NCBI RefSeq assembly: GCF_030285365.1
Contig: NZ_JASVDS010000001.1
Span: 1 to 64,000, forward strand
Length of the DNA: 64,000 nucleotides
From: Roseateles subflavus
GTDB lineage: Bacteria > Pseudomonadota > Gammaproteobacteria > Burkholderiales > Burkholderiaceae_C
Direction: 5' to 3'
Below the pieces are notes generated by a model, which did no database searches, was not told the origin of the DNA, and saw only the letters and a program-made list of their open reading frames with translations. Below, one piece after another: positions 1 to 6,335 of this stretch. The first letter of the stretch is position 1. Each line of letters opens with the position of its first letter. The position numbers and the translations under genes are program-made.

Positions 1-1
1 G

Positions 2-925
2 CTCAAGGGGGGCGAAGGCGCTGATCAGCTGCTGGGTGGCGAAGGTGACGACACGCTGATCGGTGGTGTCGGCAACGACACGCTGGACGGCGGTTTCGGC
101 AGCGACACCTTCGTGTTCGCATCAGGCTTCGGCCAGGACGTGCTGAACGAGAACGACTGGGGCGGCGGCCGAGTGGACGTGGTGAAGTTCACGGACCTGG
201 CCAGCACCGACGTCGAGTCGTTTGAGCGACGCGGATCGGATCTGGTGCTGACGTTCAAGTCCGGTGACAGCCTGACGCTGGCAAAGTACTTCTACGCCGA
301 CAATTTCCCCGAGTACAAGATCAATCAGATCCAGTTTACTGATGCGACCTGGACTCAGACTGATATCGTCCAGCGTGCGGTCTCGCATGTCGTTGGAGCG
401 CCTAGGGGTGAAGCGCTTGCTGCGATTCCTGGAACACGCAGTCAACTGCTCGGGCTCAATGGCAACGACACGTTGAACGGCAACGCTGCCAGCAACGTTC
501 TGGACGGGGGGGCTGGTGCTGATGCGCGGGCTGGGGGTGCCGGTAGCGACGCCTACGTTTTTGGCAAGGGCTATGGGATGGACTTCATCATCGAGCCGGA
601 CGAAACACAGGGTCCTGTGAATCGCAACTTGTTGAATGCAGGCCTCGCTCAGTCGGACCTCACGATTGTTTGCAGCGGCAACAACTTGATTGCAAACAGC
701 AGCAGCACGTCAGACAGTCTCGCCGTTGTGGGCCGGTACTTGGGCGATGCCCAGCAGGTCGAGAAGTTCCGCTTCGCAAACGACGATGGGCTGACAAACC
801 GGCAAGTGCAGTCGTTGGTGTCCGCAATGGCCGGATTCTCCGTGAGTGCTGTTCAGGCTGGCCCAGGCGAGTTGCCCTCGCAGCATCAGATGCCAATCCT
901 TGGAGTGTCCGCTGTGACTGCCTGA
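2..925 (+). CDS. RTX-type calcium-binding protein, C-terminal part (5' truncated)
   Basis: The reading frame is open from the window edge, so only the last 307 residues of a larger protein are visible. The first 40 residues contain nonapeptide repeats of the GGxGxDxLx type (for example GGEGDDTLIGGVGNDTLDGG), the Ca2+-binding parallel beta-roll of RTX proteins. Next comes a segment of the haemolysin-related HCBP type, with LTFKSGDSLTLAKYF followed by INQIQFTD. A second repeat block (LNGNDTLNGN, LDGGAGADARAGG) lies near residues 150-180. Such proteins are usually exported unfolded by type I secretion through an uncleaved C-terminal signal and fold outside the cell in Ca2+. The tail shows no enzymatic domain, so the function (adhesin, toxin or enzyme) depends on the missing N-terminus. 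No secretion genes are visible here. Confidence 0.85.
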   Translation, partial: LKGGEGADQLLGGEGDDTLIGGVGNDTLDGGFGSDTFVFASGFGQDVLNENDWGGGRVDVVKFTDLASTDVESFERRGSDLVLTFKSGDSLTLAKYFYADNFPEYKINQIQFTDATWTQTDIVQRAVSHVVGAPRGEALAAIPGTRSQLLGLNGNDTLNGNAASNVLDGGAGADARAGGAGSDAYVFGKGYGMDFIIEPDETQGPVNRNLLNAGLAQSDLTIVCSGNNLIANSSSTSDSLAVVGRYLGDAQQVEKFRFANDDGLTNRQVQSLVSAMAGFSVSAVQAGPGELPSQHQMPILGVSAVTA

Positions 926-1602
926 CATTGTCTTGGCCGCTGAAGCGCGACCGCTCGCAAGCCTGTTCTGCAGTTAAATGCCGGACATTGGGCCATGCGG
1001 GCGGCGCCACAGCGGTGGTTGTGTGGGCTTGAAGCCGCGAAAGCCAAAGCTCAAGCATTTGCTGGCCGAGGCGTATCAGGACATGCATCAGGACATTCTG
1101 GCGCTCACGGGCATTTTTCAGCGCAATGCACTAGCCGCGCAGGCCAGTCGCGAAGCAGCAGCCAGGACGCTCGTCCTGCATAACCTGCCTGAGCGACGTG
1201 CCTGCCGCCTAGCGGGACTCTTCAGGGATTTCAGACTGCCCACAGTCCACATTGGGGGACCGAATCCCCACCAGCCAAAGTCAGAACCTTTGCAAAAGAT
1301 GTCCGCAACACACACTGTTTAGTAAAAACAGGAGCTTGCCCACAAAAATATCCACAAACATTGCAAATCAAAGGCGGTCACGGGAGGTCGTAGTTGTGTT
1401 CCTTGGCAGCTACTAGCTCCCTGGCACGGAAGACTGCTTGAGGTCAGCCAGCGTGAATTCGCTCACGTCAAGCCACTGTCTGCAACCGCTGCTAACCTGC
1501 CTGTCCATGTGGAGGGCGGCACCAGGCTGGTCAGAGGCATTCGTGGTAAACGATTCGAGAGACCGCAGAGTCCGTTACCCGACATTCAATGGCAGAGCTA
1601 AG
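926..1602. other. Gap between RTX gene and giant reverse gene; no gene seen
   Basis: These 677 bases contain only short ORFs with no recognisable protein character. The stretch around 1315-1400 is conspicuously A-rich compared with the rest of the window. No clean hairpin followed by a T-run was found after either converging gene. It may be the scar of an insertion, but no transposase remnant, inverted terminal repeat or tRNA fragment could be identified. Confidence 0.5.
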
Positions 1603-4600
1603 TCATTTCTTGTCCGAAGCGGATGCCTGTACGTACCCCGCCGTGTATGCGGCAGCAAAGATGTCGCCCGCGACGGTTTGCGTTGGAAGGGCTGTCTGGA
1701 GGGTCGCCAGGAATTCGCTGCCAACTCGTGGGATGTTGTGCGCGATCCGGCCAGCGAGGGTTCCGAGTTCCCGAACAACTTGTTTCTCGATGTCCTGACT
1801 CATCGCGCGCTCTCCTACGCAGATCTGCACCGCCTGCTGGAGGATCGAAACGAGCCTGTTGCCGGCGTCCCGCGGCAGCCCCTGAAGCGCGAGCAATACC
1901 GGATAGCAAATCAGCGTCCAGCCCAGGCCATCGTTCTGCTGGAGAAACCGGACCCGACCGAACCAGCACGCCAGGACGGCGGCTACTGCATCCGGCTTGG
2001 TCTCTTCACCGAGCATCATCGAGCGCAAGAGGTTGCCCATGTGCGCGATCAGGTCGTTCGTGGACTTAGCGCTGTCCCAAATGGCTCGAACCAAGGTAAT
2101 GAAGGGTCTGTGGCCCATGAAGCGCTCGTATAGCTGGGCGGCGCCGCCAGAAAATCCAGCGGGCGTCGCACCTTCCAACGATGCAATCAGGTAGCGATCG
2201 GTGACGGAGATCCCGACGTTCCAGTCGACAAGGGCCGCCAACTTGAGGCTTACCTCGGAAGGCTCCAGTTCGCTTCGGTTGTCTAGGATCTCCATCGTCT
2301 GTAGCGAAGTGCAGAACCATACAGCTGCATCGTCCGAATAGATCATGGCCCTGAGGATTGCGTCATCGCAATACACCAGGTATTTCTTCTCCTTAGCAAG
2401 CTCAACGTACTCGCGCATCACATGTAAGGGCGTGAGCTCCCCACTCTTCGGCGCGCTCGAGGTACCAGGCTGATCAATCTTGGCCACCCAACGATTCACT
2501 TCCTTGAGGATGCGTGCTGCCGTCTCAGCACCGACGCCACTGGCGAGGACCCCATTTGCATGCTGGCTGATGTAGCCGACGGTTGCCTTTGAGATGGCGA
2601 TTCTTCTGAAAGCCGAGAACAGTTCATTGAACAAGCCCAGCGAGTCGACGACCAGCAGCGCGGTCAGGTCTAGCAAGGGGATGTCGCGCGTTGCGTCCGG
2701 GCTCTTTTCCTCTTTAGCCTGCGACAGGATGACCAGATGGAATTGACGGTCGCTGTAGCGCGAGGCTTTGGCGGCCTCCCAGAGCGTGAACGGGTCGCCG
2801 ATGTAGTGAAAGACAAAGCCCGGGCGCACGATGAACGGAACTGGTAGCTCGCCCGACTTGACCCGCCGCTCCCTGACTTCAAAGCCCTCCAGCCGCTCTC
2901 TCGAATTGCCGCCAATCGAATCGAAGACATCGTGCAGGTCGTCGATGTCTTCGAGGCCGTTTTCAGGCAATGACACTCGCCTGAAGAAGCGGGACTCGGG
3001 CCACCGAGAGCAGAATCTGTCGATTCGCGCCTTCGCCCATTCGACGAACTGGCCATCGGGCTGAGGCCCAGTGAGCGTGACTGCCATCACCAGGTTGATG
3101 AGGATGCCTTCTTCTTCCTCGTTGTCTTGATTCACCAGTTCGCCGAGGCCCTTAGCTGTTTCGTGGGCCTTGGCATGCTCGCTTTGCTTGAAGTAGACCA
3201 GCGCGCTGAGCCGTAGGAGCTCCAGCCGCTCCTTGGGGCCTGACTCGAGTTCAAGTAAGCGGTCGATGGCCTTACGAACAGAATCCGTACGCCCCAATCG
3301 CAACGCCAGGCCCATGAAATTGTGAACATTCGGGATGCGGCTAGTCCCCGCTTCGACCACCATTTCGAGCATCTGTATGGCCTTTCCCGTGTGCCCCATC
3401 ATTTCTTCGGCCACGGCAGCGGTAGCAAGCAGTCGCTCGTCACCTTTGAAACGCGCGAGGCCATCCGCCGCCACACCGGCTGCCTCTTGCCATTGGCTGA
3501 GCGTTGAATGGGCGGCCACCAGTCTCTGCGTGTCACCTAACGAAAGCAGCGCGCGGCCTTTGAGCTTCTTCGCGAGCTCTACTGCCTCCCGCGCCGGCTC
3601 AGGTTCATTGACGTTAAGGTTCAGAAACAGGTTAGCGACAAGCAACCAGGCATCAGGGTGGGTTTGAAGCCCCTCACGCAGTGCGTCCGTAGGTGAGGGC
3701 TCGGTGATCCCCAAGGTTCCCCTGCGCACGAACTCCGCGAACGGGACGAAGGACGCCCACTCAGGCTGCGCTGCCAGTACTTCATGGATCTCCCGGGCTT
3801 CGGCGTGTCGCCCAGCTTTGTGTGCAGCGGCGAAGCCAATGCTTAGTGCGAGAGGGCTGCTCTTGTGCTGTTCACCATCCCAGCGGGCAACCTTGAGCGC
3901 CACGGCGTGGCACTCATCGAAGCGACGAAGTTCGAACAGAAGGTTCGTCCGGCGGATAAGGACGTCCAGTTGCTCCGGCTGTCTGCGATTTGCGACAAGC
4001 GCGAGCTCCATCTCATTAGCACCGATGGCCAGCAACTCAAAGTCGCGCTGGAGATCGACGTACTCAGGCCGAGCCGCTGGTGCGTCCCCGAGCAGACGTA
4101 TCGCTTCGGCTTCCTTGCCCAGCAGACCCGCTACCCCACACAAGACCGGCGCTAGCACATCGGTATTCGGTGGCCATCCGGCTTCACGGAGCCCACTCAG
4201 GCACTTTTCCGCCATGGACCATGCCTTCTCAGCGAGATCTAGATCGGTCCCGATCGCGCCAGACAAGGGTAGCTCGCTCAGCTCGTTGAGCGGGGTGACG
4301 TTTTCCGTCGCTCCACTCCACGCCGCCCGGGCAGCAACCAGTTGCACGCTGGTCAAGTCAGCCCGAGACAATTCGGTGTCGAGTTCGGCGGCCATGGCAA
4401 ATTCAATCAACTCTTCGAACTTGCGCTGCCCAGCCAGCACAACCACCCTGGCCAGCGTCTGCTTGCGGTCAGTGATGCGCTGCAGGCAGCGTTCCGCTTC
4501 GTCGAGCTCCTGGATCGAGACATAACCACGGACGCGGAGCGACAAGCCCTCGTCAGAATCAGCACCCGATAGCATCGCCAAGGTGTCCCGAACGGCGGCC

Positions 4601-5556
4601 GTGTCGTTCCTATCCACGGCATGCAGGATCCTCAACTCGGCCAGCGGGAGAAGGTTTTCCTCGGTCTCATCAACGGCGTAGGCCTCTTCGAACTGAGCGA
4701 TCGCCTCGTCTCGCCGGCCTCGTTGCACCAATGTCTTGGCTCGCTGGCTGATGAACAACGCTCGAAGAAACGGTGTTGAGCCAAATCCTGCCTCACCAAG
4801 TTTGGACAGGGCTTGTTCTGCTTGAGCTGTGCAACCTGCGCGCAGCATCACCCGGATCTCGAGTGCTTCTGACGGCCAGGCCGCAGTACCGCCCAATTCA
4901 GCACCGAGAACGAACGTGGCGAGTTCGTCGGGGCGAGCTTGGGCTGCACTAAGCAACCGACCTAGAGCTAGATGTCGGCTCGAACCGCCGATGCGCTTGT
5001 TCTGCCGCAGGATCTCTTCCAAGCTCGCGGCCGTTTTTACCAGTTGTAGCCGTGCTTGCAAGTGAGGCTCGATGCGCACGTCCTCATGGAGGAGCTGGCC
5101 GACGGTCAGATGTACTGTCTGCGTCTCGGTGTCGGAGAGGTCAAGCTCGTGGGGGCCTCCGCGCTTCACCCGAAGCTGATCCGAGATCCATGCCCAATGA
5201 ATCGCACTCTCCGCCGGAACGGCCTTTCCCGATGAGCTGAGCTTGACCTCAGCGACGGCCAGCATGACGTCTTCCAGTGTGTTGGCATACAAATTTAAGG
5301 TCCGGCGTTTCATCCGGAACGCAATCTCGTTGCCGTCGTTCACCAGATCGAGCTTCTCGGTCCCTTTGAGCTGGATGAAGAAGGTGTGCTGAACGCCACC
5401 GTCGACGTCCACATACACCTGGAAATCGAAGCCGAAGTCGTTCTGGCCGCCGATGTCGTCGATGACCCAGCTGCCTGGACTAAAAGCGCCCAGCAGGACT
5501 TTTGAGGCCATGCTGATCCGCCTATTCCGGTCCACGATCGGAAAGTCTGCTGCCAC
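1603..5556 (-). CDS. Giant DUF4365 nuclease-like / helical repeat / PIN-like protein
   Basis: This is a 1317-residue protein. Residues about 16-125 match DUF4365, a PD-(D/E)XK-like fold: W30, then NDFGFD (acidic residue), then FFIQLKGT (the Q-x-K end of the nuclease motif). Residues about 190-850 are rich in TPR-like helical pairs. From about residue 963 comes a PIN-like domain: LDLTALL with its first Asp, YCDDAILRAM near 1062-1071 and SVTD near 1116-1119. The GTG start at 5556 is preceded by an AAGGGGG ribosome-binding site 6 bases away; an ATG at 5511 is the alternative. The gene is alone on its strand and less GC-rich than the flanks, suggesting transfer. Nuclease activity is inferred from motifs. 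A defence role is an inference from the architecture, not shown by neighbours. Confidence 0.75.
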   Translation of the reverse strand: MAADFPIVDRNRRISMASKVLLGAFSPGSWVIDDIGGQNDFGFDFQVYVDVDGGVQHTFFIQLKGTEKLDLVNDGNEIAFRMKRRTLNLYANTLEDVMLAVAEVKLSSSGKAVPAESAIHWAWISDQLRVKRGGPHELDLSDTETQTVHLTVGQLLHEDVRIEPHLQARLQLVKTAASLEEILRQNKRIGGSSRHLALGRLLSAAQARPDELATFVLGAELGGTAAWPSEALEIRVMLRAGCTAQAEQALSKLGEAGFGSTPFLRALFISQRAKTLVQRGRRDEAIAQFEEAYAVDETEENLLPLAELRILHAVDRNDTAAVRDTLAMLSGADSDEGLSLRVRGYVSIQELDEAERCLQRITDRKQTLARVVVLAGQRKFEELIEFAMAAELDTELSRADLTSVQLVAARAAWSGATENVTPLNELSELPLSGAIGTDLDLAEKAWSMAEKCLSGLREAGWPPNTDVLAPVLCGVAGLLGKEAEAIRLLGDAPAARPEYVDLQRDFELLAIGANEMELALVANRRQPEQLDVLIRRTNLLFELRRFDECHAVALKVARWDGEQHKSSPLALSIGFAAAHKAGRHAEAREIHEVLAAQPEWASFVPFAEFVRRGTLGITEPSPTDALREGLQTHPDAWLLVANLFLNLNVNEPEPAREAVELAKKLKGRALLSLGDTQRLVAAHSTLSQWQEAAGVAADGLARFKGDERLLATAAVAEEMMGHTGKAIQMLEMVVEAGTSRIPNVHNFMGLALRLGRTDSVRKAIDRLLELESGPKERLELLRLSALVYFKQSEHAKAHETAKGLGELVNQDNEEEEGILINLVMAVTLTGPQPDGQFVEWAKARIDRFCSRWPESRFFRRVSLPENGLEDIDDLHDVFDSIGGNSRERLEGFEVRERRVKSGELPVPFIVRPGFVFHYIGDPFTLWEAAKASRYSDRQFHLVILSQAKEEKSPDATRDIPLLDLTALLVVDSLGLFNELFSAFRRIAISKATVGYISQHANGVLASGVGAETAARILKEVNRWVAKIDQPGTSSAPKSGELTPLHVMREYVELAKEKKYLVYCDDAILRAMIYSDDAAVWFCTSLQTMEILDNRSELEPSEVSLKLAALVDWNVGISVTDRYLIASLEGATPAGFSGGAAQLYERFMGHRPFITLVRAIWDSAKSTNDLIAHMGNLLRSMMLGEETKPDAVAAVLACWFGRVRFLQQNDGLGWTLICYPVLLALQGLPRDAGNRLVSILQQAVQICVGERAMSQDIEKQVVRELGTLAGRIAHNIPRVGSEFLATLQTALPTQTVAGDIFAAAYTAGYVQASASDKK

Positions 5557-6335
5557 AGTTCACCCCCTTGCTCACGCACAGCACCCGTTGACGACTAACC
5601 AGCCCTGGCAACAGATCGTCAATGCAATCCTTCTGGAAGGCGATTGTCAGCGCGCAAGATCGTCCCCGACTAACCTGCCCTCCGGGACTACCCGATAGGG
5701 ACTGATCACGTACACCGGCAAATAGCGGAGTCCTGCCGTTCGGGCGAGCAAAGCGAATTGCAGCAATCGCTGCAGAACACTCAGCCGCGCCTCCAATGCA
5801 TGCCAGACAAATCTGCCACGCCCCAATCACGGAAGCCTGTGCAGATCCTCATCACCCGCAAGACCGCCGGCGTTACATGTCTTGGCTAGGTCGTCCCTCT
5901 CGCCAGTTCGCCTAGCTCGGGGCTGCGCTATGCCCGAGAAGTTGAAAACTGAGTGAACAAATTGCAGAACTCAATGAACTTCGACAGCAGGCTGGGCGTG
6001 AGAAATGTCGCCCAGGCGAAGCTCCCGGACGCGGCAATGCCAGAAGCTGCGGTATCTATTCCGGAAACGCATAGATGGTGCCGGACTGGGAGTTACGGCG
6101 TGATTACATTGCGGTGACAATCATTTCCCCACCTGCCGCGACCCGGCGGTGGCGACCCCGCCGGGCTCAGAACATGAGGCTCGGCAAGTGCCTGACATTG
6201 CGATGCAGACCGGCGATCCGGCTGTGTTCCAGAGCGGCATTGGGCCAGGCCCGGCCCGCGCTTCCCCTCGCCTTCCGCCAGGGGCCGCCGCCCGAGCCTG
6301 ACCCAATTCTGCTTTTCAACATCGAAGGACTTGCC
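5557..6335. other. Long intergenic region upstream of pckG
   Basis: This 779-base stretch separates the giant reverse gene from pckG. Base composition rises from mixed to the usual high GC at around 6130. It must hold the promoters of both divergent genes. The open frame extending upstream of pckG from 6075 (Arg- and Pro-rich) looks non-coding. No convincing -10/-35 pair, riboswitch or hairpin terminator was recognised. Confidence 0.5.

Follow-up and report, generated by a model that had tools for sequence, protein, structure and literature searches.

A DREN–TPR–PIN protein of Roseateles subflavus, a candidate stand-alone defence protein comparable to SPARDA

DREN (DUF4365) domains are known as the collateral nucleases of SPARDA and have been applied in nucleic-acid detection, and in the available parts of the SPARDA literature their activator is an Argonaute (PMC12205087, PMC10810196). 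SPARDA occurs with DREN, SMEK, MRR or HNH nucleases, according to the available part of PMC12205087. Here, a 1317-residue protein was analysed that joins an N-terminal DREN domain to a TPR-like repeat and a PIN domain. It is encoded within the first 64,000 nucleotides of contig NZ_JASVDS010000001.1 of Roseateles subflavus (RefSeq assembly GCF_030285365.1), and this whole stretch is called the window. By analogy, and with moderate confidence, the protein is read as a stand-alone defence protein that would work like SPARDA without an Argonaute. Computation established the domain identities, the intact DREN site, a PIN site partly lost under purifying selection, gene-sized transfer, and defence genes near the Pseudomonas copies. 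The gene and its N-terminal and middle parts are the following:

1603..5556, minus strand: DREN-TPR-PIN protein, 1317 aa; one uninterrupted frame with a GTG start, same architecture in homologues
5050..5526, minus strand: DREN (DUF4365) nuclease domain, residues ~11-169
5425..5439, minus strand: DxGxD part of the active site, D40-G42-D44; kept in 24/24 aligned members having the N-terminus
5365..5373, minus strand: QxK part of the active site, Q62 and K64; kept in 24/24 aligned members having the N-terminus
3007..4989, minus strand: TPR-like helical repeat, residues ~190-850 (limits approximate); several sub-cut-off TPR matches

Homologues were collected by scanning a single genome from each of 84,980 species for one conserved pattern. 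The counts are lower bounds; at least 23 loci were found, of which 12 are in Pseudomonas. The alignment (n = 27) comprised the window copy, 22 of the 23 loci, and four of ten plasmid copies; L075 (Pseudomonas syringae pv. cilantro) has no intact long frame and was left out of both the alignment and the Pseudomonas count. The N-terminus is missing in three members (L068, at a contig end; L069; L004). Directly ahead of the GTG start of the 1317-residue frame lies GGGGGTGA. A chance frame is excluded because homologues exist, with 87% identity to the window protein in one metagenome-assembled genome (L054) and 16–25% in the other aligned members, from other genera, and because the ratio of nonsynonymous to synonymous substitution rates (dN/dS) between the window copy and L054 is 0.13. 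An earlier note on this DNA, made from the sequence, had described a single chain on less GC-rich DNA, and both points held (GC of ~0.55–0.62 over the gene vs 0.63–0.72 at 6–12 kb of the window).

When the N-terminal part was scanned alone, it matched PF14280 (DUF4365) with an E-value of 1.6e-6 and 28.7 bits against a cut-off of 24.3; this family was not listed when the full-length protein was scanned. PF14280 matched all 21 of 21 aligned N-termini at E ≤ 0.01, and a fold of the DREN type was predicted for the N-terminal domain of the window protein. The catalytic motif DxGxD...QxK, as given in the available part of PMC11297309, is present, and its QxK corresponds to Q60/K62 of NbaDREN and Q62/K64 of TmuRE. 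The assignment of the DREN domain as the putative effector is strong.

Several TPR-family matches, each below its own cut-off, were obtained for residues 270–750 in the full-length Pfam scan, in keeping with the TPR-like middle claimed earlier. Solved structures searched by sequence gave no match to the whole protein at E ≤ 1 and nothing convincing for the two domain alignments (best E-values 0.19 and 0.45); the resemblance of the end domains to solved structures is at the level of the fold only. Structure prediction bore out both end-domain folds, DREN and PIN, and with them the PD-(D/E)XK and PIN assignments of the earlier note, which had made its reading depend on at least one of the two.

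For the C-terminal domain, the full-length scan gave a match to PF20698 (PIN) over residues 961–1072 (E 1.5e-9, 38.7 bits, cut-off 27.8). The PIN fold is clear in the model, with the RNA-processing PINs SMG6 and Utp24 as the nearest folds. Active PIN ribonucleases carry four acids, namely Asp at motif I, Glu at motif II, Asp at motif III, and Asp at motif IV; positions 963, 995, 1064/1065, and 1086 of the window protein are taken by us to fill these roles.

2260..2712, minus strand: PIN domain, residues ~949-1099
2668..2670, minus strand: presumed motif I, D963 kept; D in 24/27, E in 3/27; directly after model strand 131-133
2572..2574, minus strand: presumed motif II, Tyr995 in place of Glu; E in 20/27, Y in the window and L054
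2362..2367, minus strand: presumed motif III, D1064-D1065 kept; 27/27
2299..2301, minus strand: presumed motif IV, Gln1086 in place of Asp; D in 22/27, Q in the window, E in L054, N in three
1609..2214, minus strand: C-terminal helical repeat, residues ~1115-1316; AlphaFold2 (AF2) helices 291-487 of the model

The window protein does not have the four-acid site (Y995, Q1086), though D963 and D1064/D1065 are kept, and its PIN site is partly lost, under purifying selection. L054 has Tyr at motif II and Glu at motif IV; in three Enterobacter copies, the motif II residue is R or N and the motif IV residue is N. All four acids are present in 20 of the 27 members, including all 11 intact Pseudomonas loci. 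The earlier proposal of paired nucleases around a repeat sensor stands as regards the two folds, but the pair is unequal, with the DREN site intact in 24/24 and two acids gone from the window PIN. Because of this imbalance, a regulatory or nucleic-acid-sensing role is more likely for the window PIN than that of a second effector. A dual-nuclease effector, in which DREN would cut mainly DNA and PIN would cut RNA, is unlikely: the clear PIN fold, the members with all four acids, and the acids kept in 27/27 at motifs I (D, or E in three) and III speak for it, but the deviations at motifs II and IV in the window, L054, and the three Enterobacter copies show that the family does not keep a four-acid site throughout. 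By dN/dS, the C-terminal repeat was among the two fastest-evolving of five parts in six of seven pairs, the exception being the window and L054.

Two congeneric genomes were searched, and both lack the gene. Besides the window's own, full-length DREN-type members occurred in 1/200 genomes of the family, 1/369 of the class, and 2/399 of the order. A class-wide profile of six rows matched 33 of 369 genomes, at full length only in the window's own genome and in G799; the remaining matches were partial and lay mainly in the TPR part. Two candidate relatives were rejected, G161 with a match confined to the TPR part and G213 as a false match (a signalling protein by sequence). Two stretches bear on the genomic position of the window copy:

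1524..5655, minus strand: stretch common to the window and L054, i.e., the gene plus 79 and 99 bp; 85.6% over 4137 columns by blastn
1..6005, no strand: segment without alignment to the fetched 15-18 kb of the congeners G028 and G154; alignment starts at 6006

The genes upstream of the L054 copy match the window elsewhere (31.1–33.5 kb, 70–79%), so the gene occupies a different location in each genome. Six copies, from Denitromonas, Chitinilyticum, Zoogloea, Comamonadaceae, Dechloromonas, and one unclassified proteobacterium, are mutually 84–94% identical over 4.0–4.5 kb in 14 of 15 pairs, with little beyond the gene, and L059 and L063 have 5.2 kb in common, including an upstream gene. Little more than the gene has been transferred between bacteria; inspection by eye showed neither attC-like sequences nor repeats at the ends of this segment, and no formal test was made for them. 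The segment 1..6005 begins at the contig end and only its right border is visible. To the left of the phosphoenolpyruvate (PEP)-carboxykinase-like gene, G028 and G154 have what reads from their sequences as a putative type VI secretion cluster (TssM-, TagF-, OmpA-, and TssA-like genes), which is missing from the window; its TssA-like protein had no match in the window's genome in a search without a positive control. At 113–925, near the contig end, the window encodes an RTX/BapA-prefix-like calcium-binding protein, possibly a piece of a larger gene.

Matches were also found in ten plasmid records of Enterobacter and Pseudomonas (over 23–76% of the query; six typed as conjugative), and one of 5426 E. 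coli genomes was positive, with a plasmid-borne near copy of an Enterobacter form. A tyrosine recombinase lies directly downstream in three Enterobacter plasmids (L005:15953-17014, L006:6419-7465, L007:10935-11924), and a recombinase unit is present at L004, L066, and L067. These records favour a gene of mobile elements, acting against competing plasmids or phages or for maintenance of the element rather than as a chromosomal immune gene. Such a role appears rather improbable, as the copies of P. fragi and P. wayambapalatensis, at least, are in records titled as chromosomes, the window's contig is 1.28 Mb long, the phages and viral contigs searched gave no match and hence no phage-borne form, and no antitoxin was seen by eye among recurrent neighbours; its mechanism also overlaps that of stand-alone defence. 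The L004 gene (L004:9106-14709, no DREN), with an IS66 element immediately upstream of it, belongs to a P. aeruginosa plasmid that also carries genes for macrolide resistance.

Neighbouring genes were called at 22 loci. After exclusion of 16 near-duplicate neighbours and of genes shorter than 120 aa or more than 4.7 kb away, 118 genes were scanned against PADLOC, and chosen ones were then typed singly. The best 25 of 163 and the best 25 of 113 families were listed in the scans, and weaker control matches are possible. A known or candidate defence gene was present within ~5 kb at 7 of the 11 intact Pseudomonas loci:

L055: PifA
L056: Hachiman HamA
L062: PrrC-like AAA protein, with a HEPN protein on the opposite side
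L064: Lamassu LmuA and LmuB
L066: weak KwaB, E 2.4e-9
L074: HEC-08/DUF3644
L076: reverse transcriptase-protease (Pfam and PADLOC family)

The control comprised 72 genes in 11 regions taken from seven of these genomes; among the matches listed for it, a type I restriction system was the one clear defence locus. Among these matches, the one-sided Fisher test gave p = 0.012 (7 vs 1), or 0.03 when only E < 1e-40 was counted (6 vs 1). PADLOC matches to PD-T7-1 and HerA were also obtained among the neighbours, outside the per-locus tally. Several observations weigh against a defence role. The singly typed genes were picked by eye and the control is small; the PADLOC matches assigned to the 11 non-Pseudomonas loci were weak (a helicase at L069, 4.7e-14; L073, 3.3e-6); and the protein itself had no good PADLOC 2023 model (best PDC-M02A, E 0.027). 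Beside the window copy there is no defence gene, as the earlier note had said, the flanks being the RTX-like gene and a PEP carboxykinase (the latter read from sequence), and the closest relative, L054, adjoins a fumarylacetoacetate-hydrolase-like gene. As to the check proposed in the earlier note, whether homologues sit in defence islands, defence genes were found near the Pseudomonas copies. The purely housekeeping, non-patchy setting that would have spoken for another function was not what was found: the gene is patchy, horizontally moved, and near defence genes in Pseudomonas.

In 8 of the 11 Pseudomonas loci, a divergent SMC/AAA ATPase of ~958 aa (e.g., L056:6790-9666; LmuB-like, E 1.6e-24) lies 255–278 bp from the gene. 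It was rejected as an obligate partner: it is full-length in only 8 of the 11 Pseudomonas genomes, one with an internal TAG, short fragments stand beside an intact main gene in P. fragi, and two genomes have none. A large ResIII/DEAD-type helicase follows the gene at L066:14280-17246, L067:14211-17186, and L004:15023-17998, and precedes it at L069 (6057-9344), where the main gene has no DREN part.

PF20698 was above its cut-off in 10/398 genomes of the phylum and 7/399 of the order, the own genome being counted in each, and 12 PF20698 proteins of non-DREN type were fetched for comparison. Nine of them have an N-terminal Mrr-like nuclease (by alignment and a QCK, once QCR, motif; weakly by Pfam, in L052), L053 has an alpha/beta hydrolase N-terminus (weak match, E 0.002), the N-terminus of L051 has no assigned family, and L098 has no recognisable nuclease. 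Because the fetched relatives carry other N-termini, scaffold and PIN are constant while the N-terminal effector, as classed from sequence, is exchanged (DREN, Mrr-type, or hydrolase-like). At L053:8605-13155, PF24407 (HTH upstream of double PIN) precedes the PF20698 domain. A GreAB-C block is present in 10 of the 12 relatives (called by Pfam in L052 only), and a hidden Markov model built from these ten matched 0/27 DREN-type members at E ≤ 1 with filters off. The GreA/GreB-like domain could link the relatives to RNA polymerase and, together with the nearness of the PIN fold to SMG6 and Utp24, would suit a cellular RNA-processing or stress enzyme without a defence role. This we regard as very improbable in view of the absence of GreAB-C from all 27 aligned members, the patchy distribution with absence from the two other genomes of the genus, the gene-sized transfer, and the defence genes near the Pseudomonas copies.

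In the stand-alone defence reading, the DREN domain, a PD-(D/E)XK nuclease of non-specific cleavage, would idle until activation. The TPR scaffold and the C-terminal PIN and helices would act as the sensor of infection, with a nucleic acid or nucleoprotein as a plausible signal. On sensing, the DREN domains would be drawn together, probably by oligomerisation, much as they are by filament formation in SPARDA. Cleavage by DREN would then halt the infection, and the cell would probably be lost in the process. Four elements of this account are our inference, namely the trigger, the oligomerisation, the target (DNA or RNA), and abortive infection. Direct, type IV-like restriction that spares the host, with modified DNA recognised by the repeat and PIN parts, seems quite improbable. 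A more specific form of the stand-alone reading is put forward only tentatively: a weakened or dead PIN sensor may still bind RNA or another ligand and, via the TPR solenoid, gate oligomerisation of the DREN collateral nuclease, which would make the protein an Argonaute-free and guide-free counterpart of SPARDA in one polypeptide, transferred nearly as a single gene and belonging to a family with exchanged N-terminal effector. If true, a one-protein DREN with another sensor would show guide-free control and offer a compact system for phage tests. It would also give a function to proteins labelled only as DUF4365 domain-containing or hypothetical in plasmid records, and the natural PIN series, from four acids down to two, makes the role of this domain directly testable.

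Among known systems, the available part of PMC13092281 describes DefensePredictor DS-3 and DS-5 as having PIN domains in proteins proven to defend against phage; DS-3 differs in that its PIN is split between the termini, and DS-5 in being a two-gene system. The injected toxin EAT16, whose DUF4365 domain is also N-terminal, has the same DxGxD...QxK motif, and three of the four motif residues were needed for its toxicity; unlike the window protein, it is a two-domain protein of an injection system (PMC11297309, available part). A TPR-PIN fusion is not described in the DUF4365 passages of the literature searched, which did not include the DefensePredictor supplements, and no mention of GreAB-C, PF20698, or the name TPR-GreAB-C-PIN was found in that literature. 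The TPR-GreAB-C-PIN proteins (PF20698; ~1100–1550 aa) also have a TPR middle and, at the corresponding position, a PIN of this family; they differ from the DREN-type members in the GreAB-C block and in the Mrr-type nuclease of 9/12 relatives, which DREN replaces. The window protein would work like SPARDA and is not a SPARDA member, because no APAZ, PIWI, or adjoining Argonaute was found (APAZ, MID, and PIWI were absent from the Pfam scan, and neither flanking gene in the window is an Argonaute; the rest of the genome was not searched for one). With SPARDA (NbaSPARDA, PMC12205087; TmuRE-Ago, PMC10810196; both in the parts available), it has in common the DREN/DUF4365 domain, the predicted fold, the positions of D, Q, and K, and the N-terminal placement of DREN ahead of a regulatory region, a place that is held in the window protein by TPR repeats and PIN.
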